Source of the DNA: a virus
Reading direction: 5' to 3' (one strand)
Virus record (IMG/VR): IMGVR_UViG_3300003323_000353
Coordinates: 1-24,183 of that record
Length of the DNA: 24,183 nt
Part shown: positions 6,136 to 24,183 of the stretch, in pieces
How positions within the stretch are numbered: position 1 is the stretch's first letter
Layout of the letters: the number at the start of each line of letters is the position of its first letter
Program-made: the position numbers and the translations under genes
The notes under the pieces: model-generated
Database searches by the model: none
What the model was told of the DNA's origin: nothing
What the model saw: the letters and a program-made list of their open reading frames with translations, nothing else

Positions 6136-7398
6136 TTACTTCACGTCGTCGGTAAGACCCGTCAGCTTGAAGTGCGCACCACGATGGGTGGTGCCAAGCT
6201 GGCAATACTTGTACAGAATCGCGATGTAACGATCCTTTCGGCTCTCCCACTTGAGAACCTTACCATCTTCGTCCATCCAGTCCCAGTCGCTCATCTGCGC
6301 CCAGAACAGGCGATTGAGCGCGAGGCCGTAGACCGTGCCCAGAGGACACTGGTCGTCAACGAAGATCGGATTCTCGTCAAACATCAGCGCGGTGTAACCA
6401 CCGTGCAGCTTGACGCTTTCCGCATCGTTGAATCGCTTTACCGAGGTCAGGGTGCTGGCGTAACGCCGACGCAGACCGCGCGTGGTGACCAGCGCGAAGT
6501 CCAGGCCATTGTCAACGTCGATGCCCTGCTCGAATCCAACTTCGTCCTTGGCGAGATGGAGGATGTCATCCCCGATCGCCCCACCTTCGGTGTTGACGAA
6601 CGATTTCCACCAGGAGTACGTGGTCGGGTTAAGGCCATGTAGCGTTCCGGTGGCAGCCACGATGCTTTCCAACCCCTGGATCTCCTTGTTCTGGGAGTTG
6701 TTGGCGACGGACGTGGTGGAGTCGGAACTGGCGCGCACGGGGAAGTGCGTACCAGCGGTGACTTCAGCAGCCAGCGCCGGGGTGATCGTGATTTTTCGTT
6801 CTGAACGGTTGACGGCGGTGACTTTATGCGCTGCCGATTTGACCGTCCCGGCCGCAGCGACGAAATCGATGATCTCGCCTCCACGGAAGTTGATGGTCGA
6901 GTTGACAGGCACGACCGTCGCGGCCGCAGCCGTGTTGGTACGAACTTCGGTCAGTTTGCCCGAACCGTCGCCGTGAGCGGCGCGGTTGACATCCAGCTTG
7001 GATGCCAGAAGGGTGTCTTCCATCTCGGCTTTGAACGCCGACCGGAATGCACCTTCGTTGGACTCGGCAGCCCGAAGAAGCTGGCCCGTGATGTTGAACA
7101 CAGCATACGTGAACCGCATCGGCTCCTGAAGGTAGGTGTAGGAACTGTTACCCGGAGCAGGCAGCGTCTCATTCTCCGACCGGAAGCCTACAGCGTTGTT
7201 ACGCTCAGCTTTCAGCGGGATACGGAACTCGTTACCGACGAAATCGATGTTCTCAGCCGAAGGAAGAATTCCTTTGAACTGGGTCGGATTCGCGTCGGAA
7301 TCGCCGAACAGAAGCACCTTACCTTTCGGAAGGTTGTCTCGGATCGGGCCGATGAACTTCGTCTTCATAGCCGCAGAGAAAGTTGCGGTATCTGCCAT
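6136..7398 (-). CDS. Major capsid protein (HK97-fold type)
   Basis: This 420-residue protein starts MADTATFSAAMKTKFIGPI. Its size, position after the scaffold gene, and motifs fit a major capsid protein. Residues about 60-100 (FRIPLKAERNNAVGFRSENE) resemble the extended-loop region. About 165-225 is a beta-rich inserted domain. The C-terminal half includes the helix GLDFALVTTRGLRRRYAS and a late beta strand GYTALMFDENPIFVDDQCP. It has a strong GGAGGTGA ribosome site 5 nt before the ATG and its own TATAAT promoter with a roughly 140-nt leader, immediately after an intrinsic terminator. That setup fits the most abundant virion protein. Confidence 0.8.
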   Translation of the reverse strand: MADTATFSAAMKTKFIGPIRDNLPKGKVLLFGDSDANPTQFKGILPSAENIDFVGNEFRIPLKAERNNAVGFRSENETLPAPGNSSYTYLQEPMRFTYAVFNITGQLLRAAESNEGAFRSAFKAEMEDTLLASKLDVNRAAHGDGSGKLTEVRTNTAAAATVVPVNSTINFRGGEIIDFVAAAGTVKSAAHKVTAVNRSERKITITPALAAEVTAGTHFPVRASSDSTTSVANNSQNKEIQGLESIVAATGTLHGLNPTTYSWWKSFVNTEGGAIGDDILHLAKDEVGFEQGIDVDNGLDFALVTTRGLRRRYASTLTSVKRFNDAESVKLHGGYTALMFDENPIFVDDQCPLGTVYGLALNRLFWAQMSDWDWMDEDGKVLKWESRKDRYIAILYKYCQLGTTHRGAHFKLTGLTDDVK

Positions 7399-7910: not shown

Positions 7911-8246
7911 TTAGTTAGCGATGCAATGAATCTCGAACAATGCCTTGACTTTGGACAGATTTTTACCTGCTTCCAGATCTTTTCCGGTCACGGTGTCTTC
8001 GACAAGGACTTTTTCACCGTTGTAGATGAACTCGCCAGGACGATACACACCCTGTTCAGAAAGATTCTGCGTAAAGCACGTGATCGCATATCTGAACGTC
8101 GCCTCTTTACCGAACCCCGCTTCTTTCAACGAGAACGGCTCGCCGCCAGCGGTATACGATGCAGGACCAGTCCATTCGACCAGCGCAACCCAGTCTTTAC
8201 CCTCGACATATGGGGCTGCACTGACGACTTTTACGGTTCCAGCCAT
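7911..8246 (-). CDS. Putative virion/decoration-like protein
   Basis: This 111-residue protein, MAGTVKVVSAAPYVEGKDWV, appears beta-rich with little charge bias (VALVEWTGPASYTAGGEPFS, YRPGEFIYNGEKVLVED). It has a GGGAGGTG ribosome site. It lies between scaffold and capsid genes, a common place for head-decoration or head-completion genes. I recognise no specific family, so the role is inferred from position and fold-like composition only. Confidence 0.6.
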   Translation of the reverse strand: MAGTVKVVSAAPYVEGKDWVALVEWTGPASYTAGGEPFSLKEAGFGKEATFRYAITCFTQNLSEQGVYRPGEFIYNGEKVLVEDTVTGKDLEAGKNLSKVKALFEIHCIAN

Positions 8247-8263
8247 GATTCACCTCCCTTCCG

Positions 8264-9043
8264 CTAGACGGCCCCCACGGTAGGAGGCGGGGCTTTCAAT
8301 TCCTCGAACATCTCGTCCATAGCGTCCTCGAACGTCGGATGCTCTTTTTTGGTCGGCACGGTGGTACTCGCGTCCCGAGCCTTGGAGTCGATCGTCGGAG
8401 GCGGCTCATTTCCTTCGGTGCTGGTCTCCTCGGTCGCGATCCCGGCGGCTTTCCGCGCGGCCGTGATCCAGTTCTGGAAGCCTTTGTACGCCTCATCGAA
8501 GTCGCCCTCTGCCGCGACCACGAACGGATGGAACGTGTCGGCATCGAGTCGAGGATTGCCCTCCTCGTCTTTCGGAAGCTCGTCTTTGTGCTCCTCTTTG
8601 ATGCGGTCGATTTCGCCGTAGTAGGCTTTTCTCGACTCCTCAAGCCGCTGGTTCTGGATCAACTCCTGAACCTCGGGCGGAAGCTGGTCGAACTCGACCG
8701 ATTTGTCCTCCGGTGCGTTCTCCTCGGTTTTGGTCACGTCCTCGGACGACGGCTGATTCTCCTCGGACTCGCCCTGAAGGATCGCAGCGAACGCGTCGGC
8801 TTTGTCCTCGCCGTAAAGCTCTTTGATCACCTGGATGGTGGTCGCAACCGGCTCCTCATGGAACTGTTCCCAGAGCAGCGAGGCGTCCCGATCCGGTTTG
8901 CTCTCCTGCTCGATCTTGGTCACGTACGGTTGTACTTTCTCGCCCAGGAACTCACTGACTGCCTCGCGGGTGGCCTCGTCCTCGAAAGCCGCCGCAAGAT
9001 CCGAGTCCCACGGGGCCGATTTCTCATTTGAGATATCGCTCAT
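8264..9043 (-). CDS. Scaffolding protein
   Basis: This 259-residue protein is strongly acidic and helical, without Cys. Its layout is typical of phage scaffolds: an acidic N-terminus (MSDISNEKSAPWDSDLAAAF), a long charged helix (LEESRKAYYGEIDRIKEEHK), a Ser/Thr/Pro linker, and a short C-terminal helix FEDAMDEMFEELKA that could bind the coat. It has an AGGAGG site before the ATG. It lies two genes before the capsid, as is usual. The assignment rests on composition and synteny. It would guide procapsid assembly and then leave. Confidence 0.65.
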   Translation of the reverse strand: MSDISNEKSAPWDSDLAAAFEDEATREAVSEFLGEKVQPYVTKIEQESKPDRDASLLWEQFHEEPVATTIQVIKELYGEDKADAFAAILQGESEENQPSSEDVTKTEENAPEDKSVEFDQLPPEVQELIQNQRLEESRKAYYGEIDRIKEEHKDELPKDEEGNPRLDADTFHPFVVAAEGDFDEAYKGFQNWITAARKAAGIATEETSTEGNEPPPTIDSKARDASTTVPTKKEHPTFEDAMDEMFEELKAPPPTVGAV

Positions 9044-10831: not shown

Positions 10832-12748
10832 TTATTCGATGATCCGAGGCGGAAGTCGCTCAGGTTCCTGTGGTGGTTCTTCACCGTTGAGCGGCTGTTC
10901 GGTCGCAGGCTGTTGCTGCTGACCTTGCTGTTCCTGACCGGGATTCGCACCCTGGGCCACCGCCATGCGGACTGCCTGCTTGTGAAGCTCGGCCAGCCAC
11001 AGTTCTTCATGCATCTGGCAGTGGAACTCGAACTTCTGCTTGATCTCCATCGAAAGCTGCTCGTACTCGGCGGTTTTCCGGTAGTTGTTGTGCTCCTTCA
11101 GGTGGAGTTCGTGGTTGTCCCAGGAGTTCGGTTTGATCGCCGTACCGTCACTGCCGTCGATGCCTTTGTTCTGGGCCATCGTCAGGTTCTCGGCGCGGGC
11201 GGCGCGCACGTCATACATCCTCGACGGATTGAGGCTGGCGGTCGGCAGATCCATCAGTTCCGCCATCACTTCAGGATCGCGGATGATACCCTGCTGCCAG
11301 AGTTCGGTCGCCTGCTGGATACGAGCGGCGCGGCTGTCGGCGAGGCCGGTACCCATGTTGATGCGGATGCGGACGCCAGGTTTGATCTGCTCGGCCATGA
11401 AGCGCTGAACCTCGGGTAGCCCCTCGCGGCTGTAGGTCTGGATCACGACCTCTTCATCGCGGTACTGCTTCAGCAGCATGAGCGCCTGCCAACAGCCACG
11501 GCCGAGCGCGGCCTTGATCGAGCGGCGTAGCTCGGCGAGATGTGAGTCGTCGGTGTTTTGAAGCATCTCGATCGCTTGCGCGGCCTCGACGCGCCCAGGG
11601 ACTTCGCCGTTGCTAACCTGATGCTGGCCCGCCACGTCCATCATCTCTTCCCTGATCCACGTACCATCGGTGTTCTCTGGGAAGACGCTGGGCTGAAGGA
11701 TTTCGGGTTTGTACTGTCCGCCGTTGGAGTTGCCGCGTAGGATCTGGTTCGCGCTGTCGTCCGGCGGTGCCTCAAGCTCCAACTCCTCGGGAATCCACCA
11801 CTTCGGGTTGGAGAAAGCCTGTCGCACCTGGATTCGCTGCGAGTGGTATTTGTTCAACTCCATCTGCGGTGAACGTAGGTATTTCACCGTGCAGGTGGTA
11901 TGAGGACTACCGGGCCTCGGGATGGCTCCGATGAGGGTGAATGGGAGTTGTTTGTGGGCGTAGGGGAAAGAACGAGGAGCAACGAGAATATCCTTCCCAC
12001 TCCACACCACAAACAACCCCTCTGGCCAGCGTGAGTCAGTCGCCGGTTTCACCCAAAGCTCGTTCACCAGTGCTCCTTCGAGAACCGGCGCCATGCCCAT
12101 GTCTCGCAGAAGTGCAGCTTTCTCAAGGTCCGTTTTCGAGATGCTCGTAGGTTGTACTTCGACCCCGTACATCTCTTTGATCTGTTTCACGTCCATGTAC
12201 TGCTCATGGATGATGTAACGAACCGAGCGCCAGCGTTTCGCGTACGGGTCGATGTAGATTTCCAACGGCGAACAACTCATGATGTCGGGACGTTTCTCGG
12301 TCGCGTCATACGTCCACTTCAGATAAGCCTCACCACCGGCGAGCGCCCAGAGGGCGGCGTCCGACAACTCGCCGTCGATATCGGCGACCTCAGGTTGACC
12401 GAGCCACTTCAGGTACGCCCCCGCGACCGAGGCCAGGGAGATGTCGATCGGGTCTTCGGAGGCGGGCAGCACGTCAGGTTGCGGACGATCCTTGAGCGCG
12501 GCGGCGTGCTGCTTGACCACGAAGTGCATGATCTTGTTCGCCACCGGGCGCGGCTGTTTCTGTTCGCCTTTTTTGCGAGGGATGCCTCGCAGCGAGTTTG
12601 ATTCCGCCGACCATTCGACGTATTGGTTGTCGAGGAAGAAAGCGATGTTCAGCAGCACGTCTTTGTCAAATGGCAGACGCGCGCGTGCAGCGTTCAGCTT
12701 GATCTGCTCGTACTCAAGGTTGGGATTTCCGCGACCGAAGGCTGCCAT
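10832..12748 (-). CDS. Portal protein
   Basis: This 638-residue protein has a size and layout matching P22-type portals. Features include an N-terminal helical domain, the conserved stretch ALWALAGGEAYLKWTYDATE and then CSPLEIYIDPYAKRW, a stem region near LRSPQMELNKYHSQRIQVR, and GEVPGRVEAAQAIEMLQ. It ends in a Gln/Pro/Glu-rich disordered tail. The ATG follows the upstream TAG with no gap. It forms the dodecameric ring at the packaging vertex, binding terminase during packaging and the adaptor (4936-5619) afterwards. Position after the large terminase supports the call. Confidence 0.75.
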   Translation of the reverse strand: MAAFGRGNPNLEYEQIKLNAARARLPFDKDVLLNIAFFLDNQYVEWSAESNSLRGIPRKKGEQKQPRPVANKIMHFVVKQHAAALKDRPQPDVLPASEDPIDISLASVAGAYLKWLGQPEVADIDGELSDAALWALAGGEAYLKWTYDATEKRPDIMSCSPLEIYIDPYAKRWRSVRYIIHEQYMDVKQIKEMYGVEVQPTSISKTDLEKAALLRDMGMAPVLEGALVNELWVKPATDSRWPEGLFVVWSGKDILVAPRSFPYAHKQLPFTLIGAIPRPGSPHTTCTVKYLRSPQMELNKYHSQRIQVRQAFSNPKWWIPEELELEAPPDDSANQILRGNSNGGQYKPEILQPSVFPENTDGTWIREEMMDVAGQHQVSNGEVPGRVEAAQAIEMLQNTDDSHLAELRRSIKAALGRGCWQALMLLKQYRDEEVVIQTYSREGLPEVQRFMAEQIKPGVRIRINMGTGLADSRAARIQQATELWQQGIIRDPEVMAELMDLPTASLNPSRMYDVRAARAENLTMAQNKGIDGSDGTAIKPNSWDNHELHLKEHNNYRKTAEYEQLSMEIKQKFEFHCQMHEELWLAELHKQAVRMAVAQGANPGQEQQGQQQQPATEQPLNGEEPPQEPERLPPRIIE

Positions 12749-13026: not shown

Positions 13027-14433
13027 CTAGTATATCGCAGCTTCACGCTTGGCTGCGAGTTCCTTCTTGATCTGTCGCGTGACTTCTTCACCGAGCGTTT
13101 CCGGCGGCTTCAGCGGCTCAGGATTCCGCGTACTGACGAATCGCGACGAGAGGTACTGAGCACAGTCCACCAGGTCGTCGTCCTTCTTCAGCGGGCGCTC
13201 AGGGGCATCGACACCACGCTGCTTCATCGCGGTTGACAGATCCTCCCACTGGTAGTTCTTGATCGCTTCGTAGGTCTGTGGACACTCCTGCGTCAGCAGG
13301 AAGCGACGACCGGCGATCAACTGACCAAGCATCGGGATACGGTCTTTGTGATCCTTCGGTCCCTTGGTGAAGTTGAACCCGAGGCGGCGGTACTGTTCGT
13401 TGAGGCCCATGTTGGAGCCCCGGTCACGCGTCCACATGGCGACGGGATCGGCGACCCGCCAGCGCGGTTTCATCCGCTTGTGTGCCTCGATCAGTCGCCA
13501 AGCCTTGGCGTGCTGCTGTGCCGCCTGACCGGACTCTCGGTACTCGGCCACACCGACAAGTGAGCGCTTATGGCCTGATATCGTCCCGTCGTAGTCCACA
13601 ACGACCCAAAGCCCTGCGGTCGGATTACGGGTGCCAGGATCAACCGCCATCCAGTAAGTCTGTGCGTTCGACGTAAGTTTAAGCTCGTCGCGCAGAACGT
13701 GTTCGTCCCAGTTCCATTCCTCGTAGATCTGTCCGGCAAAGTCATCGAACGTGCAGAGCACGTATCGACGTATCCACTGCTCTGGATATTGCAGAAGGTA
13801 GTCAAAATACTCCTCGGGTAGGTAAGGGTTGTCGAAGCTGGTGGAGCGGAAGAAGTCTACCCCATCCTTTTTCGTATCCGGGTTGACTGCTCGACGCCAT
13901 AGCCAATTATGTCCCGCAGGGTTAGAAGCACACCAAACGCCTCGTCGCCCGATATCTCCATGACCGAGTGCAGCAGCCTCCGGGGTCGGCTCGCGCTGTC
14001 GAACGCGCGACAGCAGACCTTGGTAACTCTCTTCATCGAACTCATCCGCCTCGTCTATCGCCAAGAACCCGATGTTCAGTGACTTGTGTTTCTGCCAATC
14101 GTCCACCGACCTGAACAGTACCTTGGAGCCGTTGGGGAAGGTGAACGACTCTACGTGTCCGCCGGTTCGACGGATCTCCCCAGCCTTGTATAGCTCGTTT
14201 GGAAGTATCTCGAAAAAGACCTGCTCGGTGGAATCGCGAAGCTCGGGTGCGGTCTTACGTGCGACCATCCCTCGGATGCCGGGGAATTCGAGACACCACG
14301 CGATGGCCTCTGCGCAGAGCGCCCAACTCTTGCCGCTGCCGAAGGCGCCGAACAAGAATCTCTCGGGAGCGATCGATTCGTGGAAGGGCGCATGGATCGG
14401 GATCGGCCGATAGTCGAAGTTAACTACCGTCAT
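13027..14433 (-). CDS. terL: Terminase large subunit
   Basis: This 468-residue packaging motor has all expected motifs. Walker A is GAFGSGKS (residues 29-36), Walker B is FLAIDEA (123-129, Asp127-Glu128), and a coupling motif ASNP lies at 169-172. The RNase H-like nuclease domain begins at WMAVDPGT with Asp265, and a later acidic cluster DDDLVD lies at about 418-423. It cuts concatemers and pumps DNA through the portal using ATP. It overlaps the preceding candidate small terminase by 14 nt, so the two are probably translationally coupled. The length is typical of the family. Confidence 0.92.
   Translation of the reverse strand: MTVVNFDYRPIPIHAPFHESIAPERFLFGAFGSGKSWALCAEAIAWCLEFPGIRGMVARKTAPELRDSTEQVFFEILPNELYKAGEIRRTGGHVESFTFPNGSKVLFRSVDDWQKHKSLNIGFLAIDEADEFDEESYQGLLSRVRQREPTPEAAALGHGDIGRRGVWCASNPAGHNWLWRRAVNPDTKKDGVDFFRSTSFDNPYLPEEYFDYLLQYPEQWIRRYVLCTFDDFAGQIYEEWNWDEHVLRDELKLTSNAQTYWMAVDPGTRNPTAGLWVVVDYDGTISGHKRSLVGVAEYRESGQAAQQHAKAWRLIEAHKRMKPRWRVADPVAMWTRDRGSNMGLNEQYRRLGFNFTKGPKDHKDRIPMLGQLIAGRRFLLTQECPQTYEAIKNYQWEDLSTAMKQRGVDAPERPLKKDDDLVDCAQYLSSRFVSTRNPEPLKPPETLGEEVTRQIKKELAAKREAAIY
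13029..13034 (-). promoter_or_regulatory. Leaderless -10 box (TATACT) for the gene starting at 13021
   Basis: TATACT on the minus strand overlaps the end of the terminase gene (its last codons and TAG). It ends 7 nt before ATG. Confidence 0.5.
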
Positions 14434-15098: not shown

Positions 15099-15170
15099 CA
15101 GGGAAGCTGGGACTCGAACCCAGAGTTGCAGTTTTGGAGACTGCCGTGTTGACATTGACACTACTTCCCA
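15099..15170 (-). tRNA. tRNA-Trp (anticodon CCA)
   Basis: On the minus strand there is a D-arm GTGT/ACAC, an anticodon stem GCAGT/ACTGC with loop CTCCAAA, and a T-arm CTGGG/CCCAG with TTCGAGT. The acceptor stem has six pairs (GGGAAG/CTTCCC) and a T-T mismatch at the end. No CCA is encoded. Anticodon CCA reads UGG. Confidence 0.85.
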
Positions 15171-15242
15171 CTGGTCGGCAGGGATCGAACCTGCGTATAC
15201 CCGATTAACAGTCGGGCGCTTTGCCATCTAAGCTACGACCCA
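15171..15242 (-). tRNA. tRNA-Asn (anticodon GTT)
   Basis: The D-arm is GCTT/AAGC, the anticodon stem CCCGA/TCGGG with loop CTGTTAA, and the T-arm GCAGG/CCTGC with TTCGATC. The acceptor stem pairs well only at its inner five positions (GGTCG/CGACC); the outer two are G-A and T-G. It is directly adjacent to tRNA-Trp. Confidence 0.85.
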
Positions 15243-15246
15243 TCAG

Positions 15247-15321
15247 TCGCGGTGACAGGATTTGAACCTGTGGCCTCCCGCTCCCAAAGCGGGCGCTCTG
15301 GCCAGACTGAGCTACACCACG
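15247..15321 (-). tRNA. tRNA-Pro (anticodon TGG)
   Basis: The seven-pair acceptor CGTGGTG/CACCGCG is complete (one G-T pair). The D-arm is GCTC/GAGC, the anticodon stem CCCGC/GCGGG with loop TTTGGGA, and the T-arm ACAGG/CCTGT with TTCAAAT. The discriminator base is A and no CCA is encoded. It is the first of three clustered tRNAs. Confidence 0.92.
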
Positions 15322-17983: not shown

Positions 17984-18195
17984 CAGTGATTCCTTTCGTC
18001 GGTCCAGGGAAAGTCTGCTCGATCATGCCACACTGCACACGCACATACGCAAGCACCGATCATGCGTACGCGCCTGGGCAATTTGTCCAGTGAAACAAAC
18101 GCTGCGCCGCACGCCACGCCAAACGAACCATGATGCACGCGCTTACCAAGCACGTACACACGTGGTCCGTTGACGTGACGTACGACGCGAAACAT
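17983..18195 (-). CDS. Small hypothetical protein, second gene of the coupled operon
   Basis: This 70-residue protein starts MFRVVRHVNGPRVYVLGKRV and has a Cys/Ala stretch (MIGACVCACAVW). Both its start and its stop are in TGATG overlaps with neighbours, which is the main support that it is real. A copy of the 13-base repeat TTTGTCCAGTGAA (plus strand 18082-18094) lies inside it. The family is unknown. Confidence 0.5.
   Translation of the reverse strand: MFRVVRHVNGPRVYVLGKRVHHGSFGVACGAAFVSLDKLPRRVRMIGACVCACAVWHDRADFPWTDERNH
18082..18094. repeat. 13-bp repeat TTTGTCCAGTGAA, copy 1
   Basis: This sequence recurs at 20696-20708 and 24125-24137. Here it lies antisense to codons of a small gene. 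A preceding A extends the match with copy 2 to 14 bases. Confidence 0.7.
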
Positions 18196-20695: not shown

Positions 20696-20711
20696 TTTGT
20701 CCAGTGAACGC
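20696..20711. repeat. 16-bp repeat TTTGTCCAGTGAACGC, copy 2
   Basis: This is identical over 16 bases to 24125-24140 and over 13 to copy 1. It begins directly after the last gene of the small-gene array, in the intergenic region ahead of the ubiquitin-like cassette. Confidence 0.75.
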
Positions 20712-20783: not shown

Positions 20784-20811
20784 TTGACAAATCAAAATTA
20801 GCTGGTAGTCT
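20784..20811 (+). promoter_or_regulatory. Promoter of the ubiquitin-like cassette
   Basis: TTGACA (20784-20789), a 16-nt spacer and TAGTCT (20806-20811) preceded by TGG match the other plus-strand promoters here. The predicted start near 20818 leaves a leader of about 225 nt before the modifier gene. The spacer is locally AT-rich. Confidence 0.65.
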
Positions 20812-20827
20812 GTTCTGGCTGATTCGT

Positions 20828-20989
20828 TGGCTCCCGGTTTGCCAGGGAGGCCAGGTTGGGAATCACACACGATGGCAAGAGTGTGATGGTCGCCAGGTGG
20901 GCATCTGGCCGGGTCAGCCCCTCGTCAGCCACACGTTCATTCGTCGGTTCCTTTCCTGTGGGTTGTGCCGAGCGTGTGGCTGACGAGGG
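20828..20989 (+). ncRNA. Structured leader: four consecutive hairpins upstream of the modifier gene
   Basis: Four hairpins follow one another. They are TGGCTCCC/GGGAGGCCA (20828-20853, one bulge), ATCACAC/GTGTGAT (20862-20887), GCCAG/CTGGC (20892-20909), and a perfect 17-bp stem CCCTCGTCAGCCACACG/CGTGTGGCTGACGAGGG (20919-20935 with 20973-20989, 37-nt loop). None is followed by a T-run, so they are not simple terminators. The ribosome site AGGAGG lies 40 nt after the last stem. This looks like a cis-acting RNA or a processed small RNA. I recognise no known riboswitch class. Confidence 0.6.
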
Positions 20990-21044
20990 AGACGTCCAAA
21001 ACTTTCCTCAGTCAAACGAAAAACAACACAGGAGGTTACATCAC

Positions 21045-21263
21045 ATGAGCACCACCATCAGCATCGCTGGACTCGGTTTCTCGGCTCAGGTCGAGGTCAG
21101 CGAGGGCGAGTCGTACTGCGACGCGCTTCACCGCGCCGGGTTCTCGAACCCGGAGGAGCTCGACGTCACCGTGAACGGTGAGCAGATCGACAACCCCGAG
21201 GACGTGCCGGTGGAGGCCGACGCCCAGGTCGCCGCGACCCCGAAGAACGCGGCGCTGGGCTAG
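21045..21263 (+). CDS. Ubiquitin-like beta-grasp modifier protein
   Basis: This 72-residue protein has a small beta-grasp pattern: strands TISIAGLG and SAQVEVSE, a helix SYCDALHRAGF, a strand LDVTVNGEQI, and a final strand before the end TPKNAALG. The VTVNG segment and the Gly at the very C-terminus match the MoaD/ThiS/ubiquitin-like class. That Gly would be adenylated by an E1 and joined to targets. It ends LG rather than GG and has no tail to trim. ATG 21045 has AGGAGG 9 nt upstream; the frame is open further up but the leader is clearly non-coding. High G/C at third positions suggests strong expression. The E2-like, JAB and E1-like genes that follow strengthen the call. Confidence 0.75.
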   Translation: MSTTISIAGLGFSAQVEVSEGESYCDALHRAGFSNPEELDVTVNGEQIDNPEDVPVEADAQVAATPKNAALG

Positions 21264-21287
21264 TAACCTGCTGCGTAGATAAGTAGT

Positions 21288-21336
21288 ACCTGCTGCGCAG
21301 CAGTACGCGGGGCGCCGCCAATCCGGGCGGCGCCCC
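21288..21336 (+). terminator. Hairpins between modifier and E2-like genes, possible attenuator
   Basis: CTGCTG-CG-CAGCAG (21290-21303) is followed by a perfect 11-bp stem GGGGCGCCGCC/GGCGGCGCCCC (21309-21319 with 21326-21336). Only TT follows, so termination would be partial. ACCTGCTGCG also occurs at 21266-21275 and 21288-21297. Partial termination or a stable 3' end would make more modifier than enzymes. Confidence 0.55.
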
Positions 21337-21357
21337 TTCAGGTGAAAGGAGACAGGA

Positions 21358-22821
21358 ATGCCGTATTTTGACGAACGGCTAAGCCGTAATTTCTCAGCGG
21401 TAAACGTCCGTGCCATCGAACAGGCCGCGACGGAGTTGGAAACCGCCCGTGCGGCGCCGGTTCGTGTGATCGCCGGTACCGGCGACAGGTTCTCGATCGA
21501 GAACCACAATCACTGGCGCGGCTACGTACGTAGTGAGCGCTACTACTCGGTACCGATCGCGGATCACACGTTCGCCGAGAGCGGCATCACGTGGTACATC
21601 AACGCGTACCCGGAGTTGTACATCCCCGGTCACGAAGCCGAGTGGACGTACGCCACCTTTGCTCCCGACGAGGTGTTGGAGGCACGCAACGCACGCGGTG
21701 AAGAAACCGAATCATGCGAACTTGAGCTACTTCGCTTCACCGATGAGGCGATGGACGAGTTCTTGTCCGCGCATCCAGAGGTGTCGTGGCAACCGATCGA
21801 GTTGGATGACATCAACGGGAACACGGCTCGCATGGGTGAGTTGTTCGACAACGGGCGACTGATCTTCGCGGGATTCGGGGTACAGAATCTCAACTACTGG
21901 GGTATCGCGAAGTGGAAAGAATTGTTCTGCGATCCGGCGGTTCTGCTCGGTGACCCGAACCTGATGCGCGAAGCCGCCGAGCGGCAGGCCGAGGCATCAC
22001 GTCAGGCGTTCATCCGCATGATGGAAGATCGCGGTGACGCGACGATCACCGAGTGTCGCAAAGCGCGGGACAACTACGCGATCGAGGTAGCCAAAGCACA
22101 AGAGGCGATCGTCATCGCGGAAGGCAACCGCAACTCGTACGACCGGCAGTTGGAATACCTGCTCGACCAGTTGGACGGCGACGAGTTGACCGACGCGATG
22201 GTCAACGAGGAGTGGGAGGGCATCACCCGTAACGTAAACGTCGATCACTTCCTCGCCGGTGAGAACCGGGCGACGGCAGAGAACGTGTGGGGTGAACGTG
22301 AAGGTGGTCGAGAGGTTCCGAATCCGTACCTGAAGGTGTTCACGAAACATCTGTGGTTGACCAACCCGGAGAGCGGACGCAAACTCCCGCTCGGTGAGTT
22401 CGAGGTCACGATGAACTTCGGGACCAATCAGCTACGGATCAAGAACCTGACCCGACGCGGCAGTCGCGAAGGGTTGAACTGGGATCACCCTCACGTGAGG
22501 GAATCTCGACTGTGCTCAGCCGAGTACACCACGGCAATCACGACGTTGCTGCGCGACAGGAAACTGGCGAACATGACTAACATGATGTTCACCATCCTCG
22601 GCACGGTGACGTTGAATGATCCGTGGGGTCGCAATAACATCCGCATCTGGGAACAGATGGATGATGAGGAACGGCAGTCGAAAGGCTGGTCACCCTGGTC
22701 GGCGGACGAGGACGAGCATCCGCTCGCGATCCTCATGCAGGAAGAACAGGCAGCACGCGAAGCGGCAGCAGAGGCCGCACAACAGGAGCAAGAGCAACAG
22801 GAGGATGTAACGAATGAGTAG
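21358..22821 (+). CDS. E2-like (UBC-fold) conjugating protein with long N-terminal region
   Basis: This 487-residue protein has an unassigned N-terminal region (1-195) rich in Tyr, Trp and acidic residues. A charged coiled coil follows (about 200-275). The C-terminal part (about 320-440) resembles a UBC fold: strands GEFEVTMNF and QLRIKNLT, then HPHVRESRLC (His377-Pro-His379, Cys386), and a helix TTAITTLLRDRK. Canonical E2s have HPN followed by the catalytic Cys; bacterial E2-like proteins often have HPH. Here His-to-Cys spacing is one residue shorter than in UBE2D2. Cys386 is the likely thioester site. A Gln/Glu-rich tail ends it. The ATG has an AAAGGAGA site. The call combines motif and operon context. 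Confidence 0.65.
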   Translation: MPYFDERLSRNFSAVNVRAIEQAATELETARAAPVRVIAGTGDRFSIENHNHWRGYVRSERYYSVPIADHTFAESGITWYINAYPELYIPGHEAEWTYATFAPDEVLEARNARGEETESCELELLRFTDEAMDEFLSAHPEVSWQPIELDDINGNTARMGELFDNGRLIFAGFGVQNLNYWGIAKWKELFCDPAVLLGDPNLMREAAERQAEASRQAFIRMMEDRGDATITECRKARDNYAIEVAKAQEAIVIAEGNRNSYDRQLEYLLDQLDGDELTDAMVNEEWEGITRNVNVDHFLAGENRATAENVWGEREGGREVPNPYLKVFTKHLWLTNPESGRKLPLGEFEVTMNFGTNQLRIKNLTRRGSREGLNWDHPHVRESRLCSAEYTTAITTLLRDRKLANMTNMMFTILGTVTLNDPWGRNNIRIWEQMDDEERQSKGWSPWSADEDEHPLAILMQEEQAAREAAAEAAQQEQEQQEDVTNE

Positions 22822-23818
22822 CCAAGAGTCATACGGCCACGTTCATTTCGAGCCGGATACGTGGCGAATGCTACAGGAATACACGGACCTGTGCCCGACC
22901 GAGGTAGCGTGCATGGGATACGCCACGCTCGACGGGCCGATCGTCAAGGTCCATGAGGTATTCCTGGTACCACAGGTGGTCAGTGGTTCGTCGGTCGAGT
23001 TCATGGATACCGGCTTTCCGTGGGCCGTGAACAAAGCATTGCAGGAGGGACGCATCGATGAACTGCGGTTCATCTGGCATTCGCACTGCAACTTCAGCGC
23101 TTTCTTCTCATCGATCGATGAGGACATGGTGCGGAAGGTACGCAACCACGGGCCGATTCCCTGGCTCGCCGATGTGGTGCTGAACAAGAAGGGCGAGACT
23201 CACGCTCAGATCGATTACTTCGCTCTGGGTGATGGGGTCAATGAATTCTGCCAACACCTCATGTTGCCGCTTGAGGTTCAGGTCGGCGACTTCCCGGCGG
23301 ACGAAACCGAGAAACGCATCGAAGAGTTGGAAGCGATGCTGACCAAGAAACCCGTGACTACGACTACCACCACGTCAAGCAAGAGCAGTGGCGTGGTGGG
23401 TAAGTCGGGTTGTACCGCCGCCGACTGGCGTCTGCACAACCAGGCGAAATCCAAGGGCTGGGAGTCGTACGTGGATGACGAAGGATACATCCACTACTGG
23501 GACCCAAAAGAGGGCGGCAGTTACAAGGGCAGCGCGAAAGTCCCACTCAAATCGGATGGCACTCCGCATGATGGGTACTACACCACCACGGCATACGATC
23601 ACCCTGGGGTGATCGAGTGCCTGGATGGTGGACGTATCTTCACTGATGCGGAGCGTCAACCCGACTTCGAGAAAATGTCCGACGAGGAACTGGACGCGTA
23701 CTGCGACGCGATGATCGAGCACGCCGAGAAACGTGAACGTGAAGAAAGCGAGCAGAAAGGCAAAGACGACGAAGTAGATCCTCACGTGGATGCGATCATG
23801 GAGCGAGGTCAGATATGA
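22814..23818 (+). CDS. JAB/JAMM metalloprotease, deconjugase-like
   Basis: The N-terminal domain (about 1-155 of 334) has the full JAMM zinc site: Glu30 (CPTEVACMGY) and HSHCNFSAFFSSID with His89, His91, Ser99 and Asp102, exactly the HxHx10D spacing. It would cleave isopeptide or peptide bonds after a modifier. A Thr/Ser linker (about 187-201) leads to a second domain (about 205-285) with ADWRLHNQAKSKGWESYVDD and YIHYWDPKEGG. A charged helical tail follows. No signal peptide is seen. It overlaps the E2-like gene by 8 nt, with AGGAGG upstream, and the E1-like gene by 4 nt. Since the modifier already ends in Gly, removing it from targets is more likely than maturation. Confidence 0.85.
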   Translation: MSSQESYGHVHFEPDTWRMLQEYTDLCPTEVACMGYATLDGPIVKVHEVFLVPQVVSGSSVEFMDTGFPWAVNKALQEGRIDELRFIWHSHCNFSAFFSSIDEDMVRKVRNHGPIPWLADVVLNKKGETHAQIDYFALGDGVNEFCQHLMLPLEVQVGDFPADETEKRIEELEAMLTKKPVTTTTTTSSKSSGVVGKSGCTAADWRLHNQAKSKGWESYVDDEGYIHYWDPKEGGSYKGSAKVPLKSDGTPHDGYYTTTAYDHPGVIECLDGGRIFTDAERQPDFEKMSDEELDAYCDAMIEHAEKREREESEQKGKDDEVDPHVDAIMERGQI

Positions 23819-24183
23819 CCGATGCCATCATCGACATCCCCGAGATCCGGCCCGATGCACTCTACCATCGGCAGCACGGATTCTACAACCCGAGTGAGCA
23901 TCAGCATGATCACGTGACGTTCATCGGCGTCGGTGGCATCGGATCGTTCGCCGCGTTTGCGGCGGGCAAGCTCGGCATCCCCAAGATCACGCTGGTCGAT
24001 GATGACACTGTCGAGCTACACAACGCGCCCAATCAGATGCATCCGGTAGGTGATGCGTTGTTTGAACCAAAGGTACTGATCACTGCCGAACAGATTCGCG
24101 AGCACAGCGGCGGCCTGGTCGAGGTTTGTCCAGTGAACGCAAAACACGATGGCATCGATACGTATGACGGCGTGGTCGTCAGC
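23815..24183 (+). CDS. E1/ThiF-like adenylyltransferase, partial (runs off right edge)
   Basis: The ATG overlaps the JAB stop (ATGA), and the frame is open to the edge (123 codons). It starts MTDAIIDIPEIRPDALYHRQ; the YHRQ matches the N-terminal RQ of E1/MoeB proteins. The nucleotide loop is FIGVGGIGSF (GVGGIGS, 38-44). The acidic motif LVDDDTVELHN (Asp62, Asp64, Glu67, Asn70) follows, then NQ (73-74), and Lys86 in the FEPK position. It would adenylate the C-terminal Gly of the modifier. In the usual NLxRQ motif the Arg is replaced by Asn73. The adenylation domain end and any catalytic Cys are beyond the window. Copy 3 of the 16-bp repeat is inside the gene. Confidence 0.85.
   Translation, partial: MTDAIIDIPEIRPDALYHRQHGFYNPSEHQHDHVTFIGVGGIGSFAAFAAGKLGIPKITLVDDDTVELHNAPNQMHPVGDALFEPKVLITAEQIREHSGGLVEVCPVNAKHDGIDTYDGVVVS
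24125..24140. repeat. 16-bp repeat TTTGTCCAGTGAACGC, copy 3
   Basis: This is identical to 20696-20711. Here it lies inside the E1-like gene, encoding CPVNA in frame, while the other copies are intergenic or antisense to another gene. Confidence 0.7.

Follow-up and report, generated by a model that had tools for sequence, protein, structure and literature searches.

Why should a tailed phage carry the genes for ubiquitin-like protein tagging, a chemistry known from cells and from bacterial anti-phage defence? The question is raised by the right end of the IMG/VR virus record IMGVR_UViG_3300003323_000353, which was analysed over its entire length of 24183 bp (the window), and where a ubiquitin-like modifier (Ubl), an E2-like protein, a JAB/JAMM metalloprotease and a ThiF/E1-like adenylating enzyme are encoded one after the other on the + strand. 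A complete set kept by a phage turns the familiar picture round, and the conservation of its active sites across very divergent viruses, described below, suggests that tagging is a viral weapon or tool too. Judging from the sequences, we consider it quite probable that this cassette provides a phage-encoded cycle of ubiquitin-like conjugation and deconjugation during infection.

The Ubl gene (21045..21263) encodes a beta-grasp modifier of 72 amino acids ending in ...TPKNAALG, recognised by alignment, by AlphaFold2 modelling with Foldseek comparison, by a profile hidden Markov model (HMM) and, in a library scan of the window proteins, by a SAMP2 match below the cut-off (E=6.5e-5); the codon of its C-terminal Gly72 (21258..21260) lies two residues past a Gly column that is near-invariant in the alignment of its relatives. 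The E2-like protein (21358..22821, 487 amino acids) comprises a long helical N-terminal part and a C-terminal UBC-like core, as judged by motif, model topology and HMM, and its putative active-site motif HPHVRESRLC (residues 377-386, 22486..22515), identified by motif, alignment and UQ_con matches in four relatives, ends in the candidate catalytic Cys386. The JAB/JAMM metalloprotease (22814..23818, 334 amino acids) was assigned from a weak Prok-JAB match in the library scan (0.003), alignment, a profile match to Rpn11 and HMM; motif and alignment place its zinc motif HSHCNFSAFFSSID (HSHx7SxxD) at residues 89-102 (23078..23119) and its catalytic Glu30 at codon 22901-22903. The E1-like enzyme (23815..24183), supported by alignment, HMM and a ThiF match above the cut-off of the same scan (E=3.7e-10), is represented by its first 123 amino acids, which include the nucleotide motif GVGGIG (residues 38-43), R19, N70 and K86, before it runs into the contig end; its Cys position falls past that end.

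To this set a sequence-only reading had already assigned the four activities and their motifs, and the coordinates given here agree with it. Its description of the genes as adjacent and overlapping holds for the E2 and JAB genes (8 nucleotides) and for the JAB and E1 genes (4 nucleotides), but a gap of 94 nucleotides separates the Ubl gene from the E2 gene; likewise, a Ubl gene is present as proposed, but position 20784, where the set was said to start, falls within the leader portion of a more extended open reading frame (ORF) with a TTG start, the Ubl itself beginning at 21045. The four-gene set at the right end of the window is more than chance, because HMMs built solely from other viral contigs and run on the 323 ORFs of the window pick out exactly these four, with E-values of 5.7e-6 for the Ubl, 7.8e-12 for the E2, 2.8e-28 for the JAB and 7.5e-21 for the E1; nearly all remaining ORFs scored E >= 1, the sole exception being a weak E1 match of 0.017.

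Is the set peculiar to this record, or does it recur? Searches with tblastn for the window E2 and JAB in INPHARED gave no match, nor did back-translated single-protein scans of IMG/VR. The entry point to the family was the JAMM motif, written as a degenerate DNA pattern, which retrieved 19 IMG/VR contigs, nearly all with a JAB and an adjacent ThiF E1. A JAB alignment search then gave 53 loci, and 57 unique contigs were available after removal of duplicates; HMMs for the Ubl, E2 and E1 were first trained on the first set and the window only, and afterwards iterated. On 41 of the 57 contigs the other three genes lie close to the JAB and share its strand; the order is Ubl-E2-JAB-E1 in 33 loci, E1-Ubl-E2-JAB in five and different again in three. 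Across these 41 loci all six gene-pair distances were correlated (Mantel-type test, permutation at most 1/999), and the set has therefore been inherited as a unit. It also looks self-contained, because a neighbourhood search of the cassette loci revealed no universal additional gene such as an E3 or a target. At one locus, L011, no cassette was found beside the JAMM-motif match.

In contigs from cellular genomes, most matches to the JAMM pattern were Asgard archaeal JAMMs without a cassette. The only ones with three or four cassette genes were from metagenome-assembled genomes of candidate phyla radiation bacteria (Saccharibacteria, Parcubacteria): contigs L077, L094 and L106 carry JAB-E1-Ubl, with an E2 match as well in L077 and L106.

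The catalytic residues of the E2, JAB and E1 stay fixed at about 20-30% identity. Across 54 JABs the JAMM Glu, HxH, Ser and Asp vary hardly or not at all, and the same holds for W, N and Q residues that flank them; among solved structures the JAB profile finds its best relative in archaeal Rpn11 (2.4e-12). Two consecutive JAB genes occur at one locus (L048:6902-7942 and 7959-8732). In an alignment of 49 E1s, the GxGxxG motif, Asn and Lys are invariant (G38, G40, G43, N70 and K86 in the window), and Arg (the near-invariant R19 of the window), Asp and the Cys of a PCTA motif are each present in at least 90%. The E1s of the relatives consist of a single ThiF domain, mostly of about 205-230 amino acids, in which neither a rhodanese nor a second adenylation domain was seen.

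The window Ubl, modelled with AlphaFold2 from a 38-sequence alignment, shows a beta-grasp topology with a predicted local distance difference test (pLDDT) score of 91; Foldseek ranks Ubl, MoaD, TtuB, SUMO and SAMP proteins closest to this model (E 2.4e-3 upward, probability 1.00), so that a beta-grasp fold can be predicted with confidence. Among the Ubls of the relatives, 37 of 51 end in GG followed by zero to six residues, an ending found in 18 of 460 background ORFs. A further 8 of 51 end in AG (background 11 of 460), which brings GG or AG ends together to 45 of 51. Tandem Ubls, each repeat ending in GG, are encoded at two loci (L022:5603-6016 and L030:8633-9040).

Proteins of this kind also serve in sulfur transfer, and a ThiS/MoaD-like protein with a ThiF enzyme and a JAB could in principle generate a thiocarboxylate for tRNA or cofactor thiolation with no tagging of proteins at all. 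It fits such a role that the E1s are of the single-domain ThiF/MoeB type, that 16 of 38 Ubls match ThiS in model searches, and that the records of crAss-like phages label the E1 as 'thiamine biosynthesis protein'. However, an E2-like partner with an invariant Cys is inherited together with the set, tandem Ubls occur, the tails that follow GG would need trimming, and no thiamine, molybdopterin, rhodanese or desulfurase gene is found among the recurrent neighbours, which together make a sulfur carrier an improbable explanation.

The identification of the E2-like protein deserves a closer look. All 38 aligned E2s share the cysteine that corresponds to Cys386 in the window, in the context G-x-[FY]-x-[IV]...HPH...PC[WL]G followed by helices. 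A search with the Pfam model UQ_con, covering 49 viral records, returned just four matches (3.1e-6 to 0.0025), all of them inside cassette E2s and at profile positions 55-121, which is the active-site region. In the fold model of the window protein, the C-terminal third is laid out as a helix, beta strands, the Cys and three helices (alpha-beta4-Cys-alpha3), at pLDDT of about 80-90. The E2 label, which we keep as putative, thus draws on family membership, on the conserved motif and on what UQ_con matched in relatives. An 892-amino-acid E2-like protein (E 4e-7) adjoins an E1 in the cultured Xanthomonas phage PhiXhv-12 (about 228 kb; L113:1747-5118); no JAB was found in that stretch of its genome.

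From these parts, and from established ubiquitin biochemistry, we infer the following cycle. The JAB would trim Ubl precursors and thereby expose the terminal Gly; the ThiF-type E1 would adenylate the Ubl C-terminus and hold the Ubl as a thioester; the E2-like protein would accept it on Cys386 and pass it to an amine of the target protein without a dedicated E3; and the JAB would later take the tag off the target. Several observations should temper this proposal. In the window Ubl the near-invariant Gly column is occupied by Ala70 and the only C-terminal Gly is Gly72, a placement that, as read from the alignment, makes it a real question whether this Ubl can be activated; a few Ubls of relatives end in GA, AA or NA, and the GG tally is partly circular, as the Ubl HMM used for weak members was trained on Ubls ending in GG. 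The E1 is incomplete in the window, stopping after 123 amino acids at the contig end. For the window E2, no family was matched directly in the library scans, the fold model reached a predicted template modelling score of 0.42, a Foldseek search of the PDB with this weak model retrieved no UBC fold, and hhalign against Asgard E2s, while finding the correct register and the best score among the controls, assigned a probability of only 4%. The sequence-only reading had looked to structure prediction for both folds; the Ubl was duly modelled as a beta-grasp, whereas the E2 model is too weak for a UBC fold to be recognised in it.

Does the cassette belong to a phage at all? The window is a genuine tailed-phage fragment: on the - strand it encodes a major head protein (6136..7398; phrog_14242, 1.5e-68), a portal protein (10832..12748; phrog_156, 2.9e-31) and a terminase large subunit (13027..14433; phrog_2, 5.7e-41), so that the set does stand on one contig with terminase, portal and capsid genes as first proposed; tail genes are also present, and the structural genes have distant counterparts in Arthrobacter and Microbacterium phages. 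Of 49 related viral records, at least 19 carry a terminase (two Pfam models). The cassette lies at the contig edge and runs on the other strand from the structural genes, which might suggest that assembly had fused a bacterial Ubl operon to phage sequence; an artificial join of phage and host DNA had been named among the findings that would undo the sequence-only reading. Against this, the GC content stays at 0.54-0.61 throughout, bar one stretch of 0.67 kb at 17 kb, and shows no jump at the cassette; dozens of independent viral contigs carry the same set, and complete cultured phage genomes contain related blocks. We therefore regard an assembly artefact as very improbable here, and for the family as a whole a chimera is rejected.

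Some further features of the window can be recorded. Three tRNA genes (Trp, Asn, Pro; 15099-15321, - strand) lie beside the packaging genes. The leader of about 350 nucleotides upstream of the Ubl contains a strong inverted repeat (20919-20989; 20-nucleotide arms, 95%, 31-nucleotide loop), which was not scored as a terminator in a consensus scan. A repeat, TTTGTCCAGTGAA(CGC), is found at 18082-18097, 20696-20711 and 24125-24140, two copies sitting within a longer shared context (D4) and the third inside the E1 coding sequence; it is a possible phage promoter or operator element.

When, and on what, would a phage use such a cycle? Cultured phages offer one vantage point, and those in INPHARED with a JAB and an E1 are phiCrAss001 and its relatives of Bacteroides and the Flavobacterium phage FpV4. 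In phiCrAss001, gp79-gp78-gp77-gp76 correspond to a Ubl-like fusion, an HxH..PCxG protein, a JAB (2.1e-17) and an E1 (3.5e-45), the first two identified by position and motif alone, as the cassette HMMs reach neither; the record annotates the block as 'thiamine biosynthesis', 'metalloprotease' and hypothetical proteins. This block of the same order, in a cultured and structurally characterised phage of Bacteroides intestinalis, makes our reading testable. In FpV4 (L109:2179-3048), a Ubl-like domain ending in ..KQVKSGG is followed, within one fused protein, by an extended C-terminal region, an arrangement shared with crAss gp79; it may be released by the JAB.

The phiCrAss001 block adjoins primase, UDG and RNR genes, away from the structural genes. 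Because this crAss cassette lies near replication genes, and because the cassette strand in the window is opposite to that of the structural genes, use inside the cell early in infection is favoured. The cassette probably acts in the early or middle phase of tailed-phage infection. Its targets are most likely proteins present in the infected cell, whether host factors, parts of rival phages or virion proteins of the phage itself. In the last case the tag could go onto a head or tail protein of the phage, or onto one used in packaging or replication, as a built-in step of assembly or regulation. Such use remains a candidate because terminases lie nearby in other loci: in eight loci, the window among them, the flanking sequence retrieved with the cassette includes a related terminase gene, and Ubl/JAB pairs are known from lambdoid tail-assembly clusters (PMC1779556). 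It is at odds with the position of the phiCrAss001 set, and the structural atlas of the crAss001 virion does not mention gp76-79 in its main text, nor does a second crAss001 paper mention them; we thus consider modification of the phage's own virion or assembly proteins unlikely, while the broader cycle of conjugation and deconjugation during infection continues to be our preferred interpretation.

It remains to place the cassette among known systems. One parallel in its set of activities is Bil, which is classed among the phage-immunity systems and in which BilA contains two Ubl domains, BilB a CEHH motif (Cys, Glu+6, His+8, His+13) and BilD an inactive and an active adenylation domain plus a Cys domain (PMC11354881). 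The four activities are the same, and the gene order, which the sequence-only reading had matched to Bil, is indeed that of bilABCD as far as the names A-D reflect gene order; tandem Ubls as in BilA occur in two relatives. A Bil-like use would have the cassette tag structural proteins of superinfecting phages and keep the host cell for the resident phage. The diagnostic details of Bil, however, all fail: the window Ubl is a single domain, with tandem Ubls confined to L022 and L030; the window E2 reads CSAEYTTAITTLLR after Cys386, with no E, H and H at the CEHH offsets; and the E1s, as read from the relatives since that of the window is incomplete, are minimal, with one adenylation domain. No PADLOC Ubl or E2 model matched the window cassette, and a phage that tags virion proteins would have to spare its own. 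Defence of the Bil kind against superinfection therefore appears rather doubtful to us.

PRTRC, the other system to which the set had been likened (TIGR03735 for A/JAB, TIGR03737 for B/E2-like, TIGR03738 for C/Ubl and TIGR03736 for ThiF), shows the same succession of E2-like gene, JAB and E1 after a small Ubl; the comparison takes in operon type 6d of Iyer et al. 2006 as its description gives it. The likeness holds, distantly, for two components: PRTRC_A is the only NCBIfam family that matches many of the phage JABs (22 of 54, best 1.3e-5), and of the 49 phage E1s 46 are matched by PRTRC_ThiF (best 1.4e-20), whereas in the window itself the JAB matches no PRTRC model and neither PRTRC_A nor PRTRC_ThiF is among the matches of the E1. 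It does not extend to PRTRC_B and PRTRC_C, which have no match in the window and one weak match each, below the cut-off, in other viral records, in a search whose positive control G161 was matched; the single weak PRTRC_B match falls on a cassette E2. The active site of PRTRC B (..QGKVCVGN) resembles that of the phage E2s (..GYPCWGN), but the phage proteins are usually longer and possess the HPH motif. No plasmid relative was found for the one phage JAB searched. By sequence comparison, PRTRC may be regarded as the nearest named family for the JAB and E1. A ParB-like gene is situated near the cassette at four loci (L019, L027, L064 and L065), which recalls the ParB-related part of PRTRC.

More distant systems share individual parts. 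In the cap2/cap3 genes of CBASS type II and in the 6A-MBL E1-E2-JAB fusions, the E1 and JAB domains are related to those of the phages, but E1 and E2 are fused there and encoded by separate genes in the phage cassette; no CD-NTase was found among the window proteins scanned, which comprised part of the window ORFs. The lambdoid tail-assembly clusters (lambda tail proteins I and K) bring together a Ubl and a JAB, but no E1 or E2 has been described for them, and their JAB is fused to NlpC/P60 and their Ubl to a C-terminal domain. The ubiquitin systems of Asgard archaea and Caldiarchaeum are approached by the Rpn11 match of the JAB profile and by a canonical HP[NH]...C active site of the E2, whereas no RING E3 was identified with the phage cassette, the E1 is a minimal ThiF protein and the hhalign comparison of the E2s is weak. 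Because the phage JABs are closest to archaeal Rpn11 among solved structures, the family also bears on the origins of ubiquitin systems.

Bacterial Ubl-E2-JAB-E1 operons were first described by Iyer et al. 2006, where the phage example consisted only of the Ubl and JAB of the tail clusters (PMC1779556), and within the open-access literature, to which our search was confined, we found no paper on phage Ubl-E2-JAB-E1 cassettes. On balance we lean, if only slightly, towards a joint reading in which many tailed phages, crAss-like phages of the human gut among them, run their own E1-E2-modifier-deconjugase tagging during infection, as a lineage separate from Bil, CBASS and PRTRC, with a precursor that is sometimes a tandem Ubl and with phage, host or rival-phage proteins as the tagged partners. 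By the features compared here the phage cassette appears to be neither Bil nor PRTRC, and we suggest that it represents a phage-borne variant of the bacterial Ubl-E2-JAB-E1 operons that appears to be new.

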